Shown: positions 5,237 to 56,134 of the stretch, piece after piece
Layout of the letters: each line of letters begins with the position of its first letter
Position numbering within the stretch: the stretch's first letter is position 1
NCBI GenBank assembly: GCA_021817605.1
Contig: JAKAUN010000008.1
Coordinates: 105,561 to 169,560, forward strand
Source: Thermoplasmata archaeon
Lineage (GTDB): Archaea; Thermoplasmatota; Thermoplasmata; Lutacidiplasmatales; UBA184
Length of the DNA: 64,000 nt
Direction: 5' to 3'
Position numbers and translations under genes: made by a program
The notes under the pieces: generated by a model
What the model was told of the DNA's origin: nothing
Databases searched by the model: none
The model's input: only the letters and a program-made list of their open reading frames with translations

Positions 5237-6355
5237 CTAGCGCTTCCCGCGGACAGAGCCGTGAGCCGGCCAGCCAAGAGAGGAGAGGATCTTCTCCGTG
5301 GCCCGTGGCAGCGGGAGCCGTTCGAGATCCTTGGGGGTCGCCCACCTTCGGGTCGGCGTTGGCCCGACCGGCCCGGGATTGCCCGCCCGAAAGACGTGGA
5401 GCTCGACCGTGAAGTGGCTGTAGCCGTGGCGCACGATCCCGGCGGACGAAAGAGTCCCCGGTTCGACCCCGAGCTCCTCGCGCAGCTCTCGTCGTGCCGC
5501 CTGTTCCGGCGTTTCCCCGGGCTCGATCTTGCCGCCGGGAAACTCCCAAAGCCCCCCCAGCAGCCCCGACGACGGTCGACGCTGGAGCAGGAGCCGTCCC
5601 TTCCGCTCCAGCACCACGACCGCCGCTCGGACGTGGGGCCGTCGTCTCGCCGCCGGGACACGGGGAAGGGTCGCAGGGTCCTCGAGCTCCCTCCGAGCGC
5701 GACAGTGACGCGCGACCGGACAGATGCCGCAGCGGGGCGCGGCGGCAGTGCAGATCGTCTCGCCGAGCTCCATGACGGCCTCGTTGAAGTCGGCGGCCCG
5801 CTCGTCCGGGAGGACCGACGCGAGCCGGCTCTCGAGCCGGGAGCGGACCGCCGCGGAGCTGACGAGCCCCTCCTCCCGGGTCCACCTCGCCGCCACGCGC
5901 AGCCCGTTCGCCTCGAGGGCGACCACGGGGAGGCCGAAAGCCAGGGACGCCACGGCCCGGGCGGTGTACGGTCCTACGCCAGGCAGCCTCTCGAGCCCCT
6001 CCACGGTGGAGGGCAGACGACCTTCCTGGTCGCGGACGAGCACGCGGGCCGCCTGACGCAGGCGTCGCGCCCTTCCGTAGTAGCCGGCTCCCTGCCAGAA
6101 CTTGAGGACCTCGGCCTCCGAGGCCCGGGCGAGGGCCCGGACGGTAGGGAACCTTCGGACGAACCGCTCGAAGTAGGGTCTCGCCTGCTCGACGCGGGTC
6201 TGCTGGAGCAGCACTTCGGAGACCCAGACACGGTACGGGTCGCGGGCGGAGCGCCAGGGGAGGGGCCGGCGATGAGTGCCGAACCACCGCAGAAGGTCGT
6301 AGGCGAGACGAGGCGAAACTCCCGAAGAGGTGCCGGCGCGCCGGGCCGGGCTCAT
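5237..6355 (-). CDS. mutY: A/G-specific adenine glycosylase with C-terminal Nudix-like domain
   Basis: VWVSEVLLQQTRVEQ, LPGVGPYTARAVASLAF, C-x6-C-x2-C-x5-C FeS loop, GGLWEFPGGKIEPGETPEQAARRELREELG. Confidence 0.9.
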   Translation of the reverse strand: MSPARRAGTSSGVSPRLAYDLLRWFGTHRRPLPWRSARDPYRVWVSEVLLQQTRVEQARPYFERFVRRFPTVRALARASEAEVLKFWQGAGYYGRARRLRQAARVLVRDQEGRLPSTVEGLERLPGVGPYTARAVASLAFGLPVVALEANGLRVAARWTREEGLVSSAAVRSRLESRLASVLPDERAADFNEAVMELGETICTAAAPRCGICPVARHCRARRELEDPATLPRVPAARRRPHVRAAVVVLERKGRLLLQRRPSSGLLGGLWEFPGGKIEPGETPEQAARRELREELGVEPGTLSSAGIVRHGYSHFTVELHVFRAGNPGPVGPTPTRRWATPKDLERLPLPRATEKILSSLGWPAHGSVRGKR

Positions 6356-12771: not shown

Positions 12772-15700
12772 GTGGAATCGTACTTCGGCTCTCTCGAGGC
12801 CGAGGTCGACCGAGCGTACCAGACGGCCGAGCACGCCCGGGCGGTCGGCCTCGACCCCGAGGTCGTCCCTGAGATACCTCGGGCGCACGATATGGCCTCC
12901 CGCGTCGAGAAGCTCCTTCTCCATCTCGGCGTGGAGGGGATCTCCGCGGAGATCCGTGAGCTCGCGGCGAAGCTTCCGCGCGAGGAGGTGGCGGTCACCC
13001 TGGCGCGTCGTCTCGCCCAGGACACTTCGCGCGGCGCCTCGATCAAACGTCGTGTGGACGTCGCGCTGCGGGTAGGCCTCGCCATCCTCACCGAGGGGAT
13101 CCTGGTCGCTCCCCTGGAAGGGCTCGCCGAGGTCCACGTTAGGGAGAGCAGCGGCCAGAGCCCGTACATCGAGCTCTACTACGCCGGCCCGATCCGCGCC
13201 GCCGGCGGGACCGCCCAGGCGCTCAGCGTGCTGCTCGCCGACATCGTCCGACGCGACCTCGGCCTGTCCGCGTACCGTGCCGACCCGCAGGAGGTCGGCC
13301 GCTTCCAGGAGGAGATCCCGCTCTACAAGTTCTACCAGCACCTCCAGTACGTTCCGAGCGCCCAGGAGATCGCGCAGGTCGTCTCCCACCTTCCCGTGGC
13401 GATCTCGGGCGAGCCCACCGAGGGCGACGCCGAGGTGAGCGCCTTCCGTAACCTCCCTCGGGTCCGGACCAACGGGCTCCGTGGCGGGGCGTGCCTCGTC
13501 ATCGCCGAAGGGCTCTGCCAGAAGGCGCCCAAGCTGCGGAAGATCGTCGAGAAGCTCCACCTCGATGGCTGGGAGTTCCTGAGCGAGCTCGGCCGGGCGA
13601 AGACCGCCGAGGAGGACACGCGCGTCCCCAAGTATCTCCAGGACGCGGTCGGAGGGCGCCCGGTGCTGGCCCACCCGAGCCTCCCCGGGGGGTTCCGTCT
13701 CGTCTACGGGCGGGCCCGGAGCACCGGCCTCGCCTCGTGCGGCCTCAACCCGGCGACCATGGTCCTCCTCCAGCACTTCGTGGCGGTGGGCACCCAGGTC
13801 AAGCTCGAGTATCCGGGCAAGGCGGCGGCAATCGGCGTCTGCGACACCATCGAAGGGCCGATCGTCGAGCTCGACGACGGCAGCGTGACCGCCGTCCACG
13901 ACCTCGAGAGGGCCGAGCTCCTCCTCTCCCGGGTCCGGCGGATCATCGACCTCGGCGAGCTGTTGGTCGGCTTCGGCGAGTTCCTCGAGAACAATCGGCC
14001 GCTCGTCCCCGGGGCCTACTCACCGTCCTGGCATCACGAGGAGCTCCGCGCGGTAGGAGTCGACCCGGCGTCGGTCGGGGAGACGCTCGCCGACGCACGG
14101 GAGCTCTCGCGGACGAAAGGGGTCCCGCTCGACCCTCGCTGGCTGCTCTTCTGGCACGACCTCTCCCCGAGCGAGATCCGGGCCCTCGGGGAGTTCATCG
14201 AGCGCTCGGGTCGGTGGGTGGACGGCGCGCTCGAGCTGCCCGACGACCCGGCCTGGAAGGAGGCCCTCGTGCGGCTCGGCTTCCTCTTCCGACGGGTCGG
14301 GACGGACCGCCTCCGCGGGGAAGCGGACGCGAGCGCGGGGCTGGTCCTCGGCGTCGGTCTCGAGCCGGAGGGCGGCGGGTTCCTGCGGCGGGTCGCCCTC
14401 GAGCCGGTCGACCCCGACCCGCTCGTCTACGCGAGCCGGCTCGCCGGGGTCGTCCTGCGGGCCCGGGGTCCCTCGCGCGTCGGCGGGCGCGTCGGGAGGC
14501 CCGAGAAGGCGTACCCTCGGTCGATGCAGCCCAACGTACACGCCCTCTTCCCCGTCGGGGAGGCCGGCGGACCGACACGCTCGGTCCCGGAGGCGGCCCG
14601 ACGCGCCGCCGGCGCCGGCGTCCCAACCGAGCTTGGGGTGCGCCTCTGCTCGAGCTGCCAGCGGCCCACGGTGTGGAACCAGTGCACCTGCGGCGCGCAC
14701 ACGGTGCCCACTGGTGAGGTCGGCCGCCACGCCCTGCCGATCGGCACCCTCTGGCAGGATACCGTGGTCCGCCTCGGCCTCACCGAGGCGCCCGTCGTCA
14801 AGGGGGTGAAGGGGCTCACCTCACCCGGCAAGGTCCCCGAGCCGCTGGCGAAGGGAATCCTTCGGGCATCGCACCGGATCTCGGTCTACCAGGACGGGAC
14901 CGCCCGCTTCGACCTCACGAACCTTCCTCTCACCCACTTCCGTCCGAAGGAGATCGGCGTCGACCTCGCGACGCTCGCCCACCTCGGCTACCGGACCGAC
15001 TGGACGGGTGCCGAGCTCACCGACCCCGAGCAACTGGTCGAGCTGTTCCCCCAGGACGTCGTGGTCTCGCGCAGCTGCGGGGAGTATCTCCTGCGTCTCG
15101 CCCGCTTCGTCGACGACGAGCTCGTCCGGTTCTACGGCCTCGAGCCGTTCTACCGGGCACAGAGCGCCCTCGACCTGGTCGGGACACTGGTCGTCGCGCT
15201 CGCTCCCCACACCTCGGGAGGTGTCGCGGGAAGGATCGTGGGCTACACCCAGGCCGAAGCGTGCCTTGCCCATCCGGTCTTCCACGCCGCCAAGCGGCGC
15301 AACTGCGACGGGGACGAGGACTCGGTCACGCTCCTTTTGGACGCGTTGCTCAACTTCTCGAGGGCCTACCTGCCCGAGAGCCGCGGCGCCCTCATGGACA
15401 AGCCGCTCGTGCTCACCACCCGCCTCGCGGCCACGGAGGTCGACAAGGAGGCGCACAACGTCGACATCGCTTCCCGCTACCCCCTCGCGCTCTACCACGC
15501 CGCCCTCGAGCGCAAGAACCCGAAGGAGGTCGAGCCGCTGGTCGACATGGTCTCTAAGCGCCTCGGCACCCCGCGCTCGCTCTCGGACTACGGTTTCACC
15601 CACGACACCCGGCGGGTCGCCGGCGGGCCGGTGCGCTCGGCGTGCCGCGACGGCTGGCCGATGGCCGACCTGGTCGAGCGCTCCTTCGTCCTCGCGACGC

Positions 15701-16116
15701 AGATCCGGGCGGTCGATGTCGCCCAGGCGGTCACCCTCGTCCTCAACGCGCACTTCCTGCCCGACGTGATGGGCAACCTCAAGGGCTACGCGACGCAGCG
15801 GTTCCGCTGCCCGGCCTGCGGGGCGAACTACCGACGCCCGCCGCTGTGCGGACGGTGCGTCGCAAGCCGCCCGGGAGGGGCGAGCTGCGATCACGAGCTC
15901 CAGTCGACGGTCTACGAGGCGAGCGTGCGCAAGTACCTCCCGCTCTCGCGGCGTCTCGCCGAGATGCCGGGGATCACCCCCTACGTCCGCCAGCGCATCG
16001 AGCTCCTCTCCGACGCCCTCGCCACGCTCTTCCCGGCGGCGGCTGCCCAGACGACGCTCGAGACCTACAGCCGCGACTCCGAGGGCTCCTCCGCCGCCCG
16101 GGGCCCGCCGGGCTAG
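12772..16116 (+). CDS. polC: DNA polymerase D large subunit DP2 (no intein)
   Basis: Full-length 1114 aa; YIELYYAGPIRAAGGTAQALSVLLAD, AKRRNCDGDEDSVTLLLDALLNFS, C-terminal Zn clusters CPACGANYRRPPLCGRC. Confidence 0.97.
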   Translation: MESYFGSLEAEVDRAYQTAEHARAVGLDPEVVPEIPRAHDMASRVEKLLLHLGVEGISAEIRELAAKLPREEVAVTLARRLAQDTSRGASIKRRVDVALRVGLAILTEGILVAPLEGLAEVHVRESSGQSPYIELYYAGPIRAAGGTAQALSVLLADIVRRDLGLSAYRADPQEVGRFQEEIPLYKFYQHLQYVPSAQEIAQVVSHLPVAISGEPTEGDAEVSAFRNLPRVRTNGLRGGACLVIAEGLCQKAPKLRKIVEKLHLDGWEFLSELGRAKTAEEDTRVPKYLQDAVGGRPVLAHPSLPGGFRLVYGRARSTGLASCGLNPATMVLLQHFVAVGTQVKLEYPGKAAAIGVCDTIEGPIVELDDGSVTAVHDLERAELLLSRVRRIIDLGELLVGFGEFLENNRPLVPGAYSPSWHHEELRAVGVDPASVGETLADARELSRTKGVPLDPRWLLFWHDLSPSEIRALGEFIERSGRWVDGALELPDDPAWKEALVRLGFLFRRVGTDRLRGEADASAGLVLGVGLEPEGGGFLRRVALEPVDPDPLVYASRLAGVVLRARGPSRVGGRVGRPEKAYPRSMQPNVHALFPVGEAGGPTRSVPEAARRAAGAGVPTELGVRLCSSCQRPTVWNQCTCGAHTVPTGEVGRHALPIGTLWQDTVVRLGLTEAPVVKGVKGLTSPGKVPEPLAKGILRASHRISVYQDGTARFDLTNLPLTHFRPKEIGVDLATLAHLGYRTDWTGAELTDPEQLVELFPQDVVVSRSCGEYLLRLARFVDDELVRFYGLEPFYRAQSALDLVGTLVVALAPHTSGGVAGRIVGYTQAEACLAHPVFHAAKRRNCDGDEDSVTLLLDALLNFSRAYLPESRGALMDKPLVLTTRLAATEVDKEAHNVDIASRYPLALYHAALERKNPKEVEPLVDMVSKRLGTPRSLSDYGFTHDTRRVAGGPVRSACRDGWPMADLVERSFVLATQIRAVDVAQAVTLVLNAHFLPDVMGNLKGYATQRFRCPACGANYRRPPLCGRCVASRPGGASCDHELQSTVYEASVRKYLPLSRRLAEMPGITPYVRQRIELLSDALATLFPAAAAQTTLETYSRDSEGSSAARGPPG

Positions 16117-16170
16117 TCGGCCCTTGGCCGCGGAACCCCCAAATACGCCCGGACCCCTCGCGTCACGGTC

Positions 16171-16271
16171 GGGCTTGTGGGGTAGTCTGGACTATCCTGT
16201 TGGCCTTCGAAGCCAACGACCTGGGTTCGAAATCGCGGCTCTCGGCCGCCACGGAACTCCCAGCAAGCCCG
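16171..16271 (+). tRNA. tRNA-Arg(UCG) with putative 26-nt intron in the T-loop (16232..16257)
   Basis: Acceptor GGGCTTG/CAAGCCC; anticodon arm TTGGC-CTTCGAA-GCCAA; T-stem CTGGG/CCCAG separated by TTCGAA[intron]T; mature length 75 nt; TATA-like aaatac ~30 nt upstream. Confidence 0.82.
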
Positions 16272-17224: not shown

Positions 17225-18076
17225 ATGGCCGCCTTCGAGCTCGTCCGTCCCTCCACGGTCGAGGAGGCTCTCGCTCACGTGAAGGCCGAGGAGGGAGCGG
17301 GCGTGGTGGTTCTCGCCGGCGGTACCGACCTCCTCCTCGACCTGGACTCCGGACGGTCCACGCCGAAGAAGGTCGTCTCTCTCCGACGGCTGCCGTGGCG
17401 CTCTCTCGCCTGGGAGGGCGCAGGGCTGAGGGTCGGCAGCACCCTTCCCCTGCGCACCCTCGAGCTCGACCCCGGGGTGAGCGCGCGCTTTCCGGCCCTC
17501 GGCGAGGCGATCCGGGCCGTCGGGGGCCCGAGCCTCCGTCGCCAGGCGACCCTCGGCGGTAATGTCGGGCGGGCCGCCCCCGCCTCCGACCTGTTGCCGG
17601 TCCTCCTCGCTCTGGACGCGGAGGTCGAGCTCGTCGGCGAGGGAGGAGCGCGTTCGGTGCCGATCGACGGCTTTCTGCGCGCTTCGCGCCGTACCGCGAT
17701 CGCGCCGGGCGAGCTCATCCGCTCGGTCCTGTTCCCCGAGCCGCGGCCGTCGGCCTACCTCTGGCAGCGCGTGCGGCCCGCCAACGACATCTCGCAGGTC
17801 GCCGTCGCCGCCGCCTATTCCCCGTCACGGGGCGCCTGGCACGTTGCGCTCGGCGGCGTTCCCCCCCGTCCGTCCCTCGTACCCGCCTCCGCCCAGGCGC
17901 TGGTTACCGAACGGCCGGCTCCGGAGTCGATCGAGCACGCGGCTCGCGCTCTCGCCGCCTGGCCCGGCCTGGTGAGCGACCGTCGGGCGACCGAGGAGTA
18001 CCGACGCGAGCTGGTCGGGGTTCTGCTCCGCCGCGCGGTCCTCCGGGCGTCCGAGGCTACCCGGGGTGCGCCATGA
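17225..18076 (+). CDS. Molybdenum hydroxylase FAD-binding (medium) subunit, CoxM-like
   Basis: FELVRPSTVEEALAHV...VVLAGGTDLLLDL...TLGGNVGRAAPASDLLPVLLAL. Confidence 0.93.
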   Translation: MAAFELVRPSTVEEALAHVKAEEGAGVVVLAGGTDLLLDLDSGRSTPKKVVSLRRLPWRSLAWEGAGLRVGSTLPLRTLELDPGVSARFPALGEAIRAVGGPSLRRQATLGGNVGRAAPASDLLPVLLALDAEVELVGEGGARSVPIDGFLRASRRTAIAPGELIRSVLFPEPRPSAYLWQRVRPANDISQVAVAAAYSPSRGAWHVALGGVPPRPSLVPASAQALVTERPAPESIEHAARALAAWPGLVSDRRATEEYRRELVGVLLRRAVLRASEATRGAP

Positions 18077-18549
18077 GCCCGGGCCGCCCCGAGCTGCGGG
18101 TCAACGGCCGCGCGGTGGATCTCGAGGAGGTGCCCGTCGAGGAGCGGCTCCTCGACACCCTCCGCTGGCGTCTCGGCCTCAAGGGGACGAAGGACGGATG
18201 CCGCTCGGGAGCGTGCGGGGCCTGCACGGTCCTCCTTGACGGGAGGACGGCACTCAGCTGCCTTGCGCTCACCCACGAGCTCGAAGGCTCCGAGGTGCTG
18301 ACGGTCGAGAGCCTCTCCTCGACGCCGGTCGGTCGGCGGGTCGAGCGCGCCTTCGTGGAGGAGGGGGCCCTCCAGTGCGGCTACTGCACACCGGGATTCG
18401 TCGTCGCGCTTACCGGCCTCCTCGAGGAGCACGGAAGCTCCGTGCCGACCACGACCCTCCTCGAGGAGCTCGGCACGAATCTCTGCCGCTGCACCGGCTA
18501 CCGCTCTATTGTCCGGGCGGTGGAGCGCGCCCGCAGGGAGCTCCCGTGA
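18073..18549 (+). CDS. Molybdenum hydroxylase 2Fe-2S (small) subunit, CoxS-like
   Basis: CRSGACGACTVLLDG and CGYCTPGF...LCRCTGYRSI; ATGA overlap with the upstream gene. Confidence 0.95.
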   Translation: MSPGRPELRVNGRAVDLEEVPVEERLLDTLRWRLGLKGTKDGCRSGACGACTVLLDGRTALSCLALTHELEGSEVLTVESLSSTPVGRRVERAFVEEGALQCGYCTPGFVVALTGLLEEHGSSVPTTTLLEELGTNLCRCTGYRSIVRAVERARRELP

Positions 18550-20786
18550 GCCTCTCGCCGCGGCCGGACGCCGAGCTCAAGGTCCGCGGGCAGGCCGGCT
18601 TCGGCATGGACCTAGAGGCCCCCGGGATGCTCTGGGGAGCCCTCGTCCTCTCCCCCGTCGCGCACGGGCGCATCCGCTCGGTCGACCTCTCGGCCGCCCG
18701 GGCGCTCCCGGGGGTGACGGCGGTCGGAGCCTCGGATGTCGGTGTCCTCATGGGAGGGCTGCGCGGCGACGCGGAGCGTCCTCCGTTCCCCACCGAGGAG
18801 GTCGTCCATGCCTACCAGCCCCTGGCGGCGGTCGCCGCCCCCTCGCTCGCCCGCGCGCGCGAGGCGGCCCGTGCGGTACGCCTCACGATCGACACCCTGA
18901 CTTCCGTCACCGAGATCGAGTCGGTCTTTCCCGACTGGCCCGGCGCCGAGGGGGCGCGCTCGTCGCACGTCCTCGCCCACGTGCTCGCGAGGCGGGGAGA
19001 GGTCGAGGAGGCGTTCGCGGACGCGGAGCTGGTCGTCCGGGAGACCTACCGCACTCCCGGGGTCCACCAGGTGGCCCTCGAGCCCCACGCCTGCCTCGCC
19101 GAGGTCGCGGACGGCCGTTGGTCCGTGCGCACGACGACCCAGACCCCGTTCGGGATCCGCGAGGATGCCGCCTCGATCCTCGGCCTCGCGGAGAAGGAGC
19201 TCCTCGTCGAGGGCATGTGGGTCGGCGGCGGCTTCGGCGGGAAGAACTCCGCGCTCATCGAGCCGTATGCCCTACTCCTCGCGAAGGCCTCGGGGCGCCC
19301 GGTCCGCCTCGCGCTGACCTACCGCGAGGAGTTCCTGCTCGGCCGCACGACGCTCCCCATGGTCGTTCGGCTCGACACCGGGGTGCGCAACGGACGCATC
19401 GTCGCGCGCCGGGTCCGCCTCCTCCTGGACGGCGGCGCCTCGCTCCCCGGCCGCGACTTTGCCGCCGGTTACTCGATCGGCTTCCTCCTGGGGCCGTACG
19501 CGACCGAATCGTTCGAGGTCGAGGGCTACGCCGTCCGTACGAACCGTCCCCCGTTCGGGGCCCATCGCGCCCCTCTCGCCCCCCAGTGCGCCTTCGCCCT
19601 CGAGTCCCACATGGAAGAGGTCGCGCGGCGGATCGGGGCCGACCCCGTGGAGTTCCGTCTCGCGCATCTCTGGTCGGAGGGCTCGACGACCTCCTTCGGC
19701 CAGAAGGTCGGCCCCTTCGGGCTCCCGGCCGCGCTCCGGGCGGCGCAGCGGCGCGCGGCTGCCTGGCGCGCCGAGCGGGTTCCGGGCCATGGGATCGGTA
19801 TCGGCGTGGGGTTCTGGTCGACCTCGGTGGGCGCCGGCGGGGAGGCCCGGGTCCGCCTCACTCCCACCGAGCTCGTCCTCCAGCAGGGGGAGCGGGAGAT
19901 CGGCAGCGGGAGCGTCCTCGTCGGGCTCTCGGCGGTCGTCGAGCGGCGCACCGGCCTTCCCCGGGAGCGCATCCGGGTGGATTACCAGGACACCTCGACC
20001 GCGCCGTTCGACTCGGGGGTCTTCGGCAGCCGGACGGTCGGAGCCCTCGGGACGGCAGTGCTCCGGGCGATCGAAGCGCTGCTCTCCGAGGTCGCCCGCC
20101 GGCTCGGCACCGAAGGGGAGGTCCGCCTGGTCGTGGAGGCGGGGGAGATACACGTCCGCTCGGAGACGGGCTCGAAGCCGGTCCGCGAGCTTCTTCGACC
20201 CTCGGACCGCAGCGCCGGAGGACTCGTCGCCGAGGGCCGCCACTACCCTCCGTCCGGGAAGATCGACGCGTCGCTGGTCGTCGACGGAAGCTTCTACGCC
20301 TACCACGACTTCGCCGGGGCGGCGCACGTGGCGGAGGTATCGGTCGATCCCGAGACCGGCACCGTGCGTCTCGAGCGCTACGCCGCCTTCCACGACGTCG
20401 GACGGGTCGTCGATTGGCCGAGCGCCCGTGCGCAGGTCGAAGGCGGGGTCGTGATGGGGATCGGCAGCGCCCTCACCGAGGAGGCGATCTGGTCGGGCGA
20501 CGGCCGCCTCGTCAACGCCAGCCTCCTCGACTACCGCATCCCGACCCTCGGCGAGGTCCCTCCGATCGACGTCGAGTTCCTCGAGGGGTTCGAAGGCGCC
20601 GGGCCGTTCGGGGCCAAGGGGCTCGGCGAGCCGCCGATCATCCCCGTGCCCGCGGCGGTCGCCTCCGCGGTGCGCGAGGCGACCGGGGCACATCTCACGG
20701 AGCTGCCTCTCTCGGCCGAGCGCGTGGCCCGAGCTCTTAAGCGCGGGCGAACGTCCCCGTCGCCCGATGGCTCTCGGGACCGCTGA
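18546..20786 (+). CDS. Molybdenum hydroxylase large (Mo-cofactor) subunit, xanthine dehydrogenase/aldehyde oxidase family
   Basis: VGGGFGGKNSALIEPYALLLA, C-terminal GPFGAKGLGEPPIIPVPAAVASAV; GTGA overlap with the small subunit. Confidence 0.9.
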   Translation: MSLSPRPDAELKVRGQAGFGMDLEAPGMLWGALVLSPVAHGRIRSVDLSAARALPGVTAVGASDVGVLMGGLRGDAERPPFPTEEVVHAYQPLAAVAAPSLARAREAARAVRLTIDTLTSVTEIESVFPDWPGAEGARSSHVLAHVLARRGEVEEAFADAELVVRETYRTPGVHQVALEPHACLAEVADGRWSVRTTTQTPFGIREDAASILGLAEKELLVEGMWVGGGFGGKNSALIEPYALLLAKASGRPVRLALTYREEFLLGRTTLPMVVRLDTGVRNGRIVARRVRLLLDGGASLPGRDFAAGYSIGFLLGPYATESFEVEGYAVRTNRPPFGAHRAPLAPQCAFALESHMEEVARRIGADPVEFRLAHLWSEGSTTSFGQKVGPFGLPAALRAAQRRAAAWRAERVPGHGIGIGVGFWSTSVGAGGEARVRLTPTELVLQQGEREIGSGSVLVGLSAVVERRTGLPRERIRVDYQDTSTAPFDSGVFGSRTVGALGTAVLRAIEALLSEVARRLGTEGEVRLVVEAGEIHVRSETGSKPVRELLRPSDRSAGGLVAEGRHYPPSGKIDASLVVDGSFYAYHDFAGAAHVAEVSVDPETGTVRLERYAAFHDVGRVVDWPSARAQVEGGVVMGIGSALTEEAIWSGDGRLVNASLLDYRIPTLGEVPPIDVEFLEGFEGAGPFGAKGLGEPPIIPVPAAVASAVREATGAHLTELPLSAERVARALKRGRTSPSPDGSRDR

Positions 20787-53806: not shown

Positions 53807-56134
53807 GTGGGCGGCCCGTCGCCGCCGCACGACGGCTGGCTGCTCGACATCACCGAGAGCTCCGACGGCCGCTCGGTCGTCCTGTGGGTGAAGGAGCGGC
53901 AGAGCGGCCGCGTCCGTCGCACGGCGGTCGAGTTCCGTCCCCCGTTCTTCGTCACGGGGCCTCGGGCGGAGCTCTCCGCGCTCGCCGGCCGCCTCCGCGG
54001 GCTGCCCGTCGTCGCCTCCGTGGAGCTCGGGAGCGGGCGCCTGTCGCTCTTCGACGCCCGGCCGCGGCCCCAGCTTTCGGTCGTGCCGGCCGAGAACCCC
54101 GGACGCCGCGCGCTCGCCCGGACGATCGACGCCCTGGGCCGCTACGAGGCGTTCACCCTCTACGACGTCGACCTCTCGCCCCCGCAGCTCTACCACCTCG
54201 CCCACGACCTCTACCCGTTCGCCCCCGTCACGGGGAAAGGCGCCGAGCTCCGTGCGACCGAGCCGGCCGAGACGATCGACTACGCGATGCCTCCGCTCTC
54301 CGTGGCGCGGTTCGAGATCGCCTTGAAGGGCGAGCGTCGGGGCCGGCTGCCTCCGCCGGACGGACGGATCGGCTCGGTTCGTGTGGGAGATCTCACCGTC
54401 GAGGGCGAGGACGAGGCCTCGGTCCTCCGCGCGCTGGTCGACGAGCTCGCCCGCAGCGAGCCCGATGTCCTGCTGAGCCGGGGCGGGGACGCCTTCGACC
54501 TCCCCTGGCTCTACCGACGGGCTCTGGCCTGCGGTCTCACGCCGAAAGAGTTCGTCCTCGGCCGGGAGCCGGCGCCGTTCAGGGCGGCGCGGCCGGCCCG
54601 CTCGTTCGAGTCGTACGGGCGCGTCCTTTACCGCTCGGCGCTCTACCCCCTGCCGGGACGGTTCCACATCGACCGGCAGAACTCCTTCCTCTTCGACGAC
54701 TCCGAGCTCGCCGGCCTCGTGGACGCCGCCCGCCTCTCCCGCCTCTCGCTCCAGACGGTCGTCCGCCAGTCGCCGGGGACCTGCTTTACCGCGATGGAGA
54801 TGGCCGAGGCGCTGCGCCTCGGCGTCCGCGTCCCCTGGAAGAAGAACCGTCCCGAGGAGTTCCGCACGGGCGAGGAGCTGGTCGCCGCCGACCGCGGCGG
54901 GGTGATCTTCCTCCCGCCGGTCGGCGTCCACGACCGCATCGACGAGTTCGATTTCGCGAGCCTCTACCCGCACATCATGGTCCGCAAGAACCTCTCGGCG
55001 GAGACCCTGGAGTGCCGCTGCTGCCCGAAGAGCCCGATCCGGGCCCCCGGGCTCGGCTACCGCTCCTGCACGCGGCGGCGCGGCCTCATCCCCCGCACCC
55101 TCGCTCCCCTCCTCGAGCGGCGTCTCGCCTACAAGGCGGCGCTCAAGCAGCCCGGGCTCCCTCCCGCGAGGGCCGAGGAGCTAAGCCGACGGGTCAAGAT
55201 GCTCAAGTGGATCCTGGTGACCGCCTTCGGCTACCAGGGCTACCGCAACGCCCGCTTCGGACGGATCGAGTGCCACGAGGCGATCAACGCCTACGCCCGC
55301 GAGCTCCTGGCCGCCCTCCTCGCCGAGGCGGAGCGGGCCGGCTACCGGGTCGTCCACGGGATCGTCGACTCGCTCTGGCTGCGTCCGATCGACCCCGATC
55401 GGCCGCCCGAGCCGGAGGAGTTCGCCCGCAACGCGAGCGAGCGGTTCGACCTTCCTCTCAGCTACGAGGGCCGCTACCGCTGGATCGTCTTCTTGCCGGC
55501 GGTCACGCACGGCCTCGGCGTCCCGAACCGCTACTACGGCCTCTACGAGCACGGGGAGTACAAGCTCCGCGGGATCGGCGGCCGTCGCCACGACACCCCC
55601 GGCCTTCTCCGGCGCTTCGAGCTCGAGGTTCTCGATCTGTTCCGCCGGGCCCCCGACGCCGAGGGGGTCCGCGCCCTCCTTCCCCGCGCGCTCGCCCGCG
55701 CCGACCTGTTCGCCGCGAAGGTGCGGGAGCTCTCCTGGCCGGTGGACGAGCTCGTGATCTCCCACCGGCTCGGCCAGCCTCCCTCCGCCTTCGTCACGTT
55801 CACCGACTCGGTCGCCGCGCTCCGCCAGCTCCACGACGCCGGGGCCGTCCGCTCCGCCGGCGAGATCGTCCGCTTCGTCCTGCTCGACCGCAAGAGCCGC
55901 TCGTTCCGCGACCGGGTCCGGGCCGCCGAGCTCCTGGACGGGAGCGAGCGCTACGACGCGGACGCCTACCTCGAGCTGCTCGCGCGCGAGGCGGAAACGC
56001 TCCTCGCGCCCCTCGGGGTCCGACGCGCCGAGCTCCTCGAGCGCTGGGGCGTGGCCGAGCCGCTGCCGCGGGCGCCGTACCGCTCCCCGGAGCGTCGGGC
56101 GCAGCGCTCTCTCCCCGGCGTCCCCTCGGGATAG
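53807..56134 (+). CDS. Divergent family B DNA polymerase (PolB2-type)
   Basis: Motif A DFASLYPHIMVRKNLSAETLEC, Cys cluster CRCC...SC, motif B KMLKWILVTAFGYQGYRNARFG, motif C VVHGIVDSLWL. Confidence 0.85.
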   Translation: MGGPSPPHDGWLLDITESSDGRSVVLWVKERQSGRVRRTAVEFRPPFFVTGPRAELSALAGRLRGLPVVASVELGSGRLSLFDARPRPQLSVVPAENPGRRALARTIDALGRYEAFTLYDVDLSPPQLYHLAHDLYPFAPVTGKGAELRATEPAETIDYAMPPLSVARFEIALKGERRGRLPPPDGRIGSVRVGDLTVEGEDEASVLRALVDELARSEPDVLLSRGGDAFDLPWLYRRALACGLTPKEFVLGREPAPFRAARPARSFESYGRVLYRSALYPLPGRFHIDRQNSFLFDDSELAGLVDAARLSRLSLQTVVRQSPGTCFTAMEMAEALRLGVRVPWKKNRPEEFRTGEELVAADRGGVIFLPPVGVHDRIDEFDFASLYPHIMVRKNLSAETLECRCCPKSPIRAPGLGYRSCTRRRGLIPRTLAPLLERRLAYKAALKQPGLPPARAEELSRRVKMLKWILVTAFGYQGYRNARFGRIECHEAINAYARELLAALLAEAERAGYRVVHGIVDSLWLRPIDPDRPPEPEEFARNASERFDLPLSYEGRYRWIVFLPAVTHGLGVPNRYYGLYEHGEYKLRGIGGRRHDTPGLLRRFELEVLDLFRRAPDAEGVRALLPRALARADLFAAKVRELSWPVDELVISHRLGQPPSAFVTFTDSVAALRQLHDAGAVRSAGEIVRFVLLDRKSRSFRDRVRAAELLDGSERYDADAYLELLAREAETLLAPLGVRRAELLERWGVAEPLPRAPYRSPERRAQRSLPGVPSG

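Follow-up and report, generated by a model that had tools for sequence, protein, structure and literature searches.

The tRNA-Arg(UCG) gene and its insert

The window, the whole 64,000-nucleotide stretch of Thermoplasmata DNA analyzed here, harbors a tRNA-Arg(UCG) gene whose T-loop is interrupted by 26 nucleotides. The insert (16232-16257), atcgcggctctcggccgccacggaac, sits between TTCGAA and T, and the acceptor stem and T-stem are fully paired only when it is left out. The anticodon is TCG and its loop is uninterrupted. Position of the gene, extent and sequence of the insert, and continuity of the anticodon loop had all been given exactly in the original prediction. The locus comprises the following elements.

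16141..16145, + strand: TATA-like element AAATA at −30 to −26, A-rich in relatives
16171..16271, + strand: tRNA-Arg(UCG) gene, pre-tRNA of 101 nt, 75 nt without the insert
16171-16177, + strand: 5′ strand of the acceptor stem, GGGCTTG
16221..16225, + strand: 5′ strand of the T-stem, CTGGG, the outer helix of the splice motif
16226-16231, + strand: T-loop sequence TTCGAA, 5′ of the insert
16226..16229, + strand: T54-T55-C56-G57, 5′ strand of the 4-bp central helix, from the offset scan and RNA fold
16230..16232, + strand: 5′ bulge AAA, three nucleotides being the best fit in the offset scan
Between 16231 (A59) and 16232, + strand: predicted 5′ cut, placed by the intronless orthologues
16232..16257, + strand: 26-nt intron at tRNA positions 59/60, delimited by the relatives' loci
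16233..16239, + strand: 5′ arm of the inner helix, TCGCGGC, with one C.C mismatch (to 16250), backed by covariation
16245..16251, + strand: 3′ arm of the inner helix, GCCGCCA
16252..16255, + strand: CGGA, 3′ strand of the central helix, pairing with TTCG through one T.G wobble
16256..16258, + strand: 3′ bulge ACT, with the predicted 3′ cut between 16257 and 16258 (T60)
16259..16263, + strand: 3′ strand of the T-stem, CCCAG
16264..16271, + strand: 3′ strand of the acceptor stem, CAAGCCC, and discriminator G (16271)

Upstream of the gene, A residues occupy positions −29 and −28 in 75% of 83 loci. The neighborhood contains, by eye, a 1114-aa open reading frame similar to the archaeal DNA polymerase D large subunit just upstream (12772-16116) and, downstream (17225-20786), three consecutive frames resembling the FAD, iron-sulfur, and molybdenum subunits of CO-dehydrogenase/xanthine-oxidase type enzymes.

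Standard gene finders handle the unspliced gene poorly. ARAGORN places its 3′ end wrongly at 16247, and the Rfam tRNA model, applied to the window at its gathering threshold, leaves it undetected. When the insert is removed in silico, the 75-nt copy is called correctly as Arg(tcg) by ARAGORN.

Conservation of the insert in relatives

A DNA search of 150 relatives, with the fetched loci parsed by script, yielded 75 genomes carrying an insert at the identical phosphate of tRNA-Arg(UCG). These genomes represent the genus of the window and most other genera of its family. The insert measures 23-38 nt among them and its middle differs almost everywhere, as befits a fast-evolving segment, whereas the exon next to it hardly varies. 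Recurrence at one and the same site in 75 genomes is, on this comparison, not a matter of chance, and it bears out the earlier proposal of a T-loop intron at 59/60 in a Thermoplasmata-like genome. Eight orthologues have no insert: two belong to the same family (L108 and L110) and six to other families of the class. The sequence in L108 and L110, TTCGAAT-CCCGG, equals the product expected from splicing, and the comparison of these two with the insert carriers fixes the insertion site at 59/60.

That ARAGORN and Rfam miss or misplace the gene might suggest a degenerate or pseudo-tRNA, or an artefact of assembly. The stems are perfect, though, the gene is conserved in 75 genomes, and no second tRNA-Arg(UCG), which the original prediction had named as a possible counter-argument, was found in the 100% complete genome. 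We regard the likelihood of a defective or artefactual gene as negligible.

Geometry of the splice motif

The original prediction had drawn a relaxed bulge-helix-bulge with a central helix of only three base pairs. An offset scan over all sequences, with the tRNAs bearing G57 considered for a clear answer, rejected this reading. With a 3′ bulge of three nucleotides, T54-G57 pair fully with CGRA in 95% of the 75 tRNA-Arg(UCG) sequences, and the central helix is fully paired in 96% of the other G57 tRNAs; the remaining 3′ bulge offsets produced a full central helix in none of the G57 tRNAs. Setting the 5′ bulge likewise to three nucleotides, the next six intron positions of the tRNA-Arg(UCG) set pair at 88, 96, 87, 91, 96, and 85%. 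Only this combination fits the G57 tRNAs. The two 3-nt bulges lie on opposite strands and hold the predicted cut sites, and the T-stem serves as outer helix with 5/5 pairs. An alternative central helix, G53TTC:GAAC, can form four pairs in the window copy, but only at the expense of the fifth T-stem pair, and it is not available to the many copies that end in GAAACT.

Covariation supports the inner helix as well. Its positions are paired at a fraction of 0.91 as compared to 0.66 when partners are shuffled (0/2000 shuffles reach the observed value), and three to six pair types occur per position. In other tRNAs of the family, the corresponding values are 0.85 and 0.46. The base opposite position 57 follows the identity of that position, being C in 117/120 G57 sequences and in 1/42 A57 sequences (Fisher p ~1e-33, a nominal value as the sequences are related). 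A57 tRNAs usually form an A.G pair at the fourth central position (29/42) and are thus mildly off canonical, and the tRNA-Asn of the same genome has a C.C mismatch inside its central helix. In the minimum-energy fold of the window pre-tRNA, the T-stem and central helix both form and the 3′ bulge has three nucleotides; a fold with at least three of four central pairs plus the T-stem is the minimum-energy structure in only 82/140 sequences. Taken as predicted structure, the splice motif of the window tRNA-Arg(UCG) is a canonical 3-4-3 bulge-helix-bulge.

The stability of this extended T-arm in the precursor could also be taken to mean that the insert is retained, leaving the mature tRNA with a T-loop enlarged by a hairpin. 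The D-loop/T-loop contact of tRNAs requires T54-A58 in a normal loop, which speaks against retention, as do the plain TTCGAAT loops of the closely related L108 and L110 and the constant geometry of the splice motif in spite of inserts ranging from 18 to 44 nt. Retention is therefore a very improbable outcome.

Other introns in the same genome

Weak tRNA matches of the genome were read by eye and by script, and a covariance model was then built from them. The original prediction had considered a T-loop intron unusual for such a genome; this view does not hold, since at least twelve further tRNA genes there have one (loci L028-L030, L124-L129, L131, L141, and L142 of G000) and many other Thermoplasmatota do too. 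The introns found in the genome are distributed as follows.

T-loop, thirteen tRNAs: Arg(UCG), Arg(UCU), Asn(GUU), Glu(CUC), Gln(CUG), Ala(GGC), Ser(GCU), Ser(GGA), Ser(CGA), Gly(UCC), Asp(GUC), His(GUG), and Lys(UUU)
D-loop, four tRNAs: iMet (L021), Arg(GCG) (L123), Pro(UGG) (L145), and Lys(UUU) (L142)
Position 37/38: eMet, Tyr, Leu(UAA), and Trp

tRNA-Lys(UUU) thus carries two introns, one in the D-loop and one in the T-loop. All 13 T-loop genes reach 7/7 acceptor and 5/5 T-stem pairs once the intron is removed, and all 13 are assigned the right anticodon by ARAGORN after splicing in silico; applied to the unspliced genes, the program returns nothing for ten, wrong ends for three, and a correct call for none. 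No search of the genome, including a pattern search for tRNA-Ile(GAU), recovered tRNA-Ile(GAU) or tRNA-Leu(UAG), both of which may carry larger or multiple introns. ARAGORN also reports a tRNA-Leu(cag) in the window at 54551-54626, which the Rfam tRNA search of the genome does not support; another tRNA-Leu(CAG) lies at G000:C14:68406-68490, and the window call is probably a false positive.

Splicing enzymes of the genome

The genome has only one EndA gene. It encodes a single 353-aa protein with two PF01974 units that is co-linear with Archaeoglobus fulgidus EndA (1r0v) and retains the catalytic Tyr/His/Lys in its C-terminal half. In the alignment with the Aeropyrum pernix enzyme, the loop residues of the latter fall opposite gaps, that is, the crenarchaea-specific insertion is absent. 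These features assign the protein, as judged from its sequence, to the homodimeric α′ type without crenarchaeal loop. Of the ε2 type known from ARMAN-2, which has a three-unit protomer and an ARMAN-specific loop, chain 4fz2 matches only residues 221-348. The original prediction had held that T-loop introns need an endonuclease tolerant of relaxed motifs. Given a canonical motif, no special or tolerant endonuclease is required, and we infer that this is why a narrow EndA suffices. An RtcB protein is encoded in the genome as well (559 bits).

Distribution across Thermoplasmatota and the form of EndA

In eight further members of the family, the T-loop intron recurs in most of the 13 tRNAs. T-loop introns are not confined to the family: further orders and families of the class have them in Arg(UCU), Arg(CCG), Lys(UUU), Lys(CUU), Ala(CGC), and Met-type tRNAs, and they extend to other families of the phylum Thermoplasmatota. 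The complete f8 genomes have such an intron in tRNA-Arg(UCU). Six genomes of families f15, f19, and f35, complete or nearly so, gave listed tRNA matches of 71-75 nt throughout, down to the weak scores at which the listing ends, and no T-loop intron was seen among them. The f19 group is the family of Thermoplasma acidophilum; the EndA of its member G209 matches PDB 2ohc with one difference. Position 59/60 is in use across Thermoplasmatota, T-loop introns not having been found in the Thermoplasma family and two further lineages. The absence of T-loop introns from the cultivated Thermoplasma family may explain why earlier surveys omitted them.

The form of EndA may track this distribution. T-loop intron carriers with a scored EndA have proteins of ~320-400 aa with two PF01974 matches (one, G119, below the family cut-off), while the genomes with no detected T-loop introns have a shortened EndA with one full PF01974 match: the f15 and f19 proteins comprise 289-311 aa and are truncated in the N-terminal part of their catalytic domain, most of which is missing, and that of f35 is a reduced form unlike either. 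This comparison (loci L379-L427) covers about three clades, with long-form genomes checked for introns only in part. Contig C75 of G199 bears two EndA copies (204-974 and 5305-6075) with identical scores in opposite orientation, possibly an assembly palindrome. A plausible if somewhat doubtful reading is that Thermoplasmatota possess a large, old set of introns at essentially 59/60 that co-evolved with the form of EndA, full-length two-domain α′ enzymes accompanying the carriers and lineages with shortened enzymes (the Thermoplasma family f19, f15, and f35) having lost the introns or never had them.

The same correlation, together with the A.G pair in A57-type motifs, could be taken to indicate that the long α′ form has widened specificity and that it is this property which allows T-loop substrates to be spliced. 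The main motif is canonical, however, and α′ enzymes are described as narrow and as cutting canonical motifs (PMC6379350, PMC4033280); the A. fulgidus enzyme, which is itself counted among the narrow ones, has a comparable architecture, and the small number of clades behind the correlation also counsels caution. Widened specificity thus seems unlikely.

Relation to known tRNA introns

Position 59/60 is among the published archaeal insertion points, for which Crenarchaeota and Nanoarchaeota are rich sources, whereas Euryarchaeota have been described as having single introns at the canonical site (PMC4090602). In the same vein, Euryarchaeota with α2 or α4 EndA are credited with few introns, one per tRNA and at the anticodon site, non-canonical introns being thought to accompany loosened endonucleases (PMC4090602, PMC4033280, PMC6379350). 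Euryarchaeal non-canonical introns were credited to three thermophilic methanogens in 2011 (PMC3218864), Korarchaeum was presented in 2014 as the only archaeon combining an α2 EndA with non-canonical introns (PMC4033280), and a 2024 paper described numerous non-canonical introns in Asgard genomes (PMC11291895). In the part of the literature covered, no report on tRNA introns in Thermoplasmatota was found.

The closest parallel is provided by Thermoproteales, whose non-canonical introns (59/60 being listed, PMC4090602) likewise lie outside 37/38, are recognized by EndA as bulge-helix-bulge, and affect many tRNAs per genome. Despite these similarities, Thermoproteales introns occur at scattered positions, often with relaxed motifs, and are served by a heterotetrameric EndA with the crenarchaea-specific loop. 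The window genome uses about one position (59/60) plus some D-loop sites, a canonical motif, and a homodimeric EndA without the loop; the window copy has no relaxed hBH/HBh′ motif, A57 tRNAs deviating by one A.G pair, and the genome has no heterotetrameric, looped EndA. Canonical 37/38 introns share with the window intron the 3-4-3 bulge-helix-bulge and the same predicted enzymes, but the latter draws on the T-loop, and not on the anticodon loop, with T54-G57 forming its central helix. Korarchaeum cryptofilum also combines a two-subunit-type EndA with non-canonical introns; in contrast to the enzyme of the window genome, its α2 EndA has a crenarchaeal-type specific loop (PMC4033280). The Asgard Atabeyarchaeia and Freyarchaeia resemble the present case in a recently found, heavy load of non-canonical introns outside Thermoproteales, yet they belong to another phylum, and introns affect >90% of their tRNAs, more than half with multiple introns (PMC11291895). 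The window intron is of a known kind, the archaeal bulge-helix-bulge intron.

Proposed splicing pathway and implications

It is very probable that tRNA-Arg(UCG) is transcribed with a 26-nt T-loop intron that forms a canonical bulge-helix-bulge, is cut by homodimeric EndA, and is joined by RtcB, and that it is one of 13 such genes belonging to a Thermoplasmatota-wide set. Transcription, cutting, and ligation of the precursor are here deduced from the genomes. In the T-arm of the precursor, the T-stem would act as outer helix, T54-G57 would pair with CGGA of the intron, and the 3-nt bulges would expose the cut sites. Homodimeric EndA would then cut after A59 and before T60, RtcB would join the exons to a normal TTCGAAT loop, and the T-loop could fold normally after ligation. 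As the precursor is probably devoid of D-loop/T-loop contact until it is spliced, the T-loop is probably modified, and the tRNA folded into its final form, only afterwards. Two reasons for the use of a single intron site are possible: T54-G57 supplies half of the motif free in every tRNA, and an interrupted 3′ half makes a poor integrase target.

For genome annotation, the loss or misreading of ~13 of ~45 tRNA genes by ARAGORN may affect the completeness counts of metagenome-assembled genomes, and claims of missing tRNAs in Thermoplasmatota may be affected in the same way. The finding of a euryarchaeal phylum with canonical motifs at a non-canonical place is the opposite of what reviews describe, and a canonical motif at a new place argues that motif geometry, rather than position, limits splicing. 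T-loop introns would also allow the driver of intron position to be tested, be it a trade-off with T-loop modification, integrase target sites, or the form of EndA.
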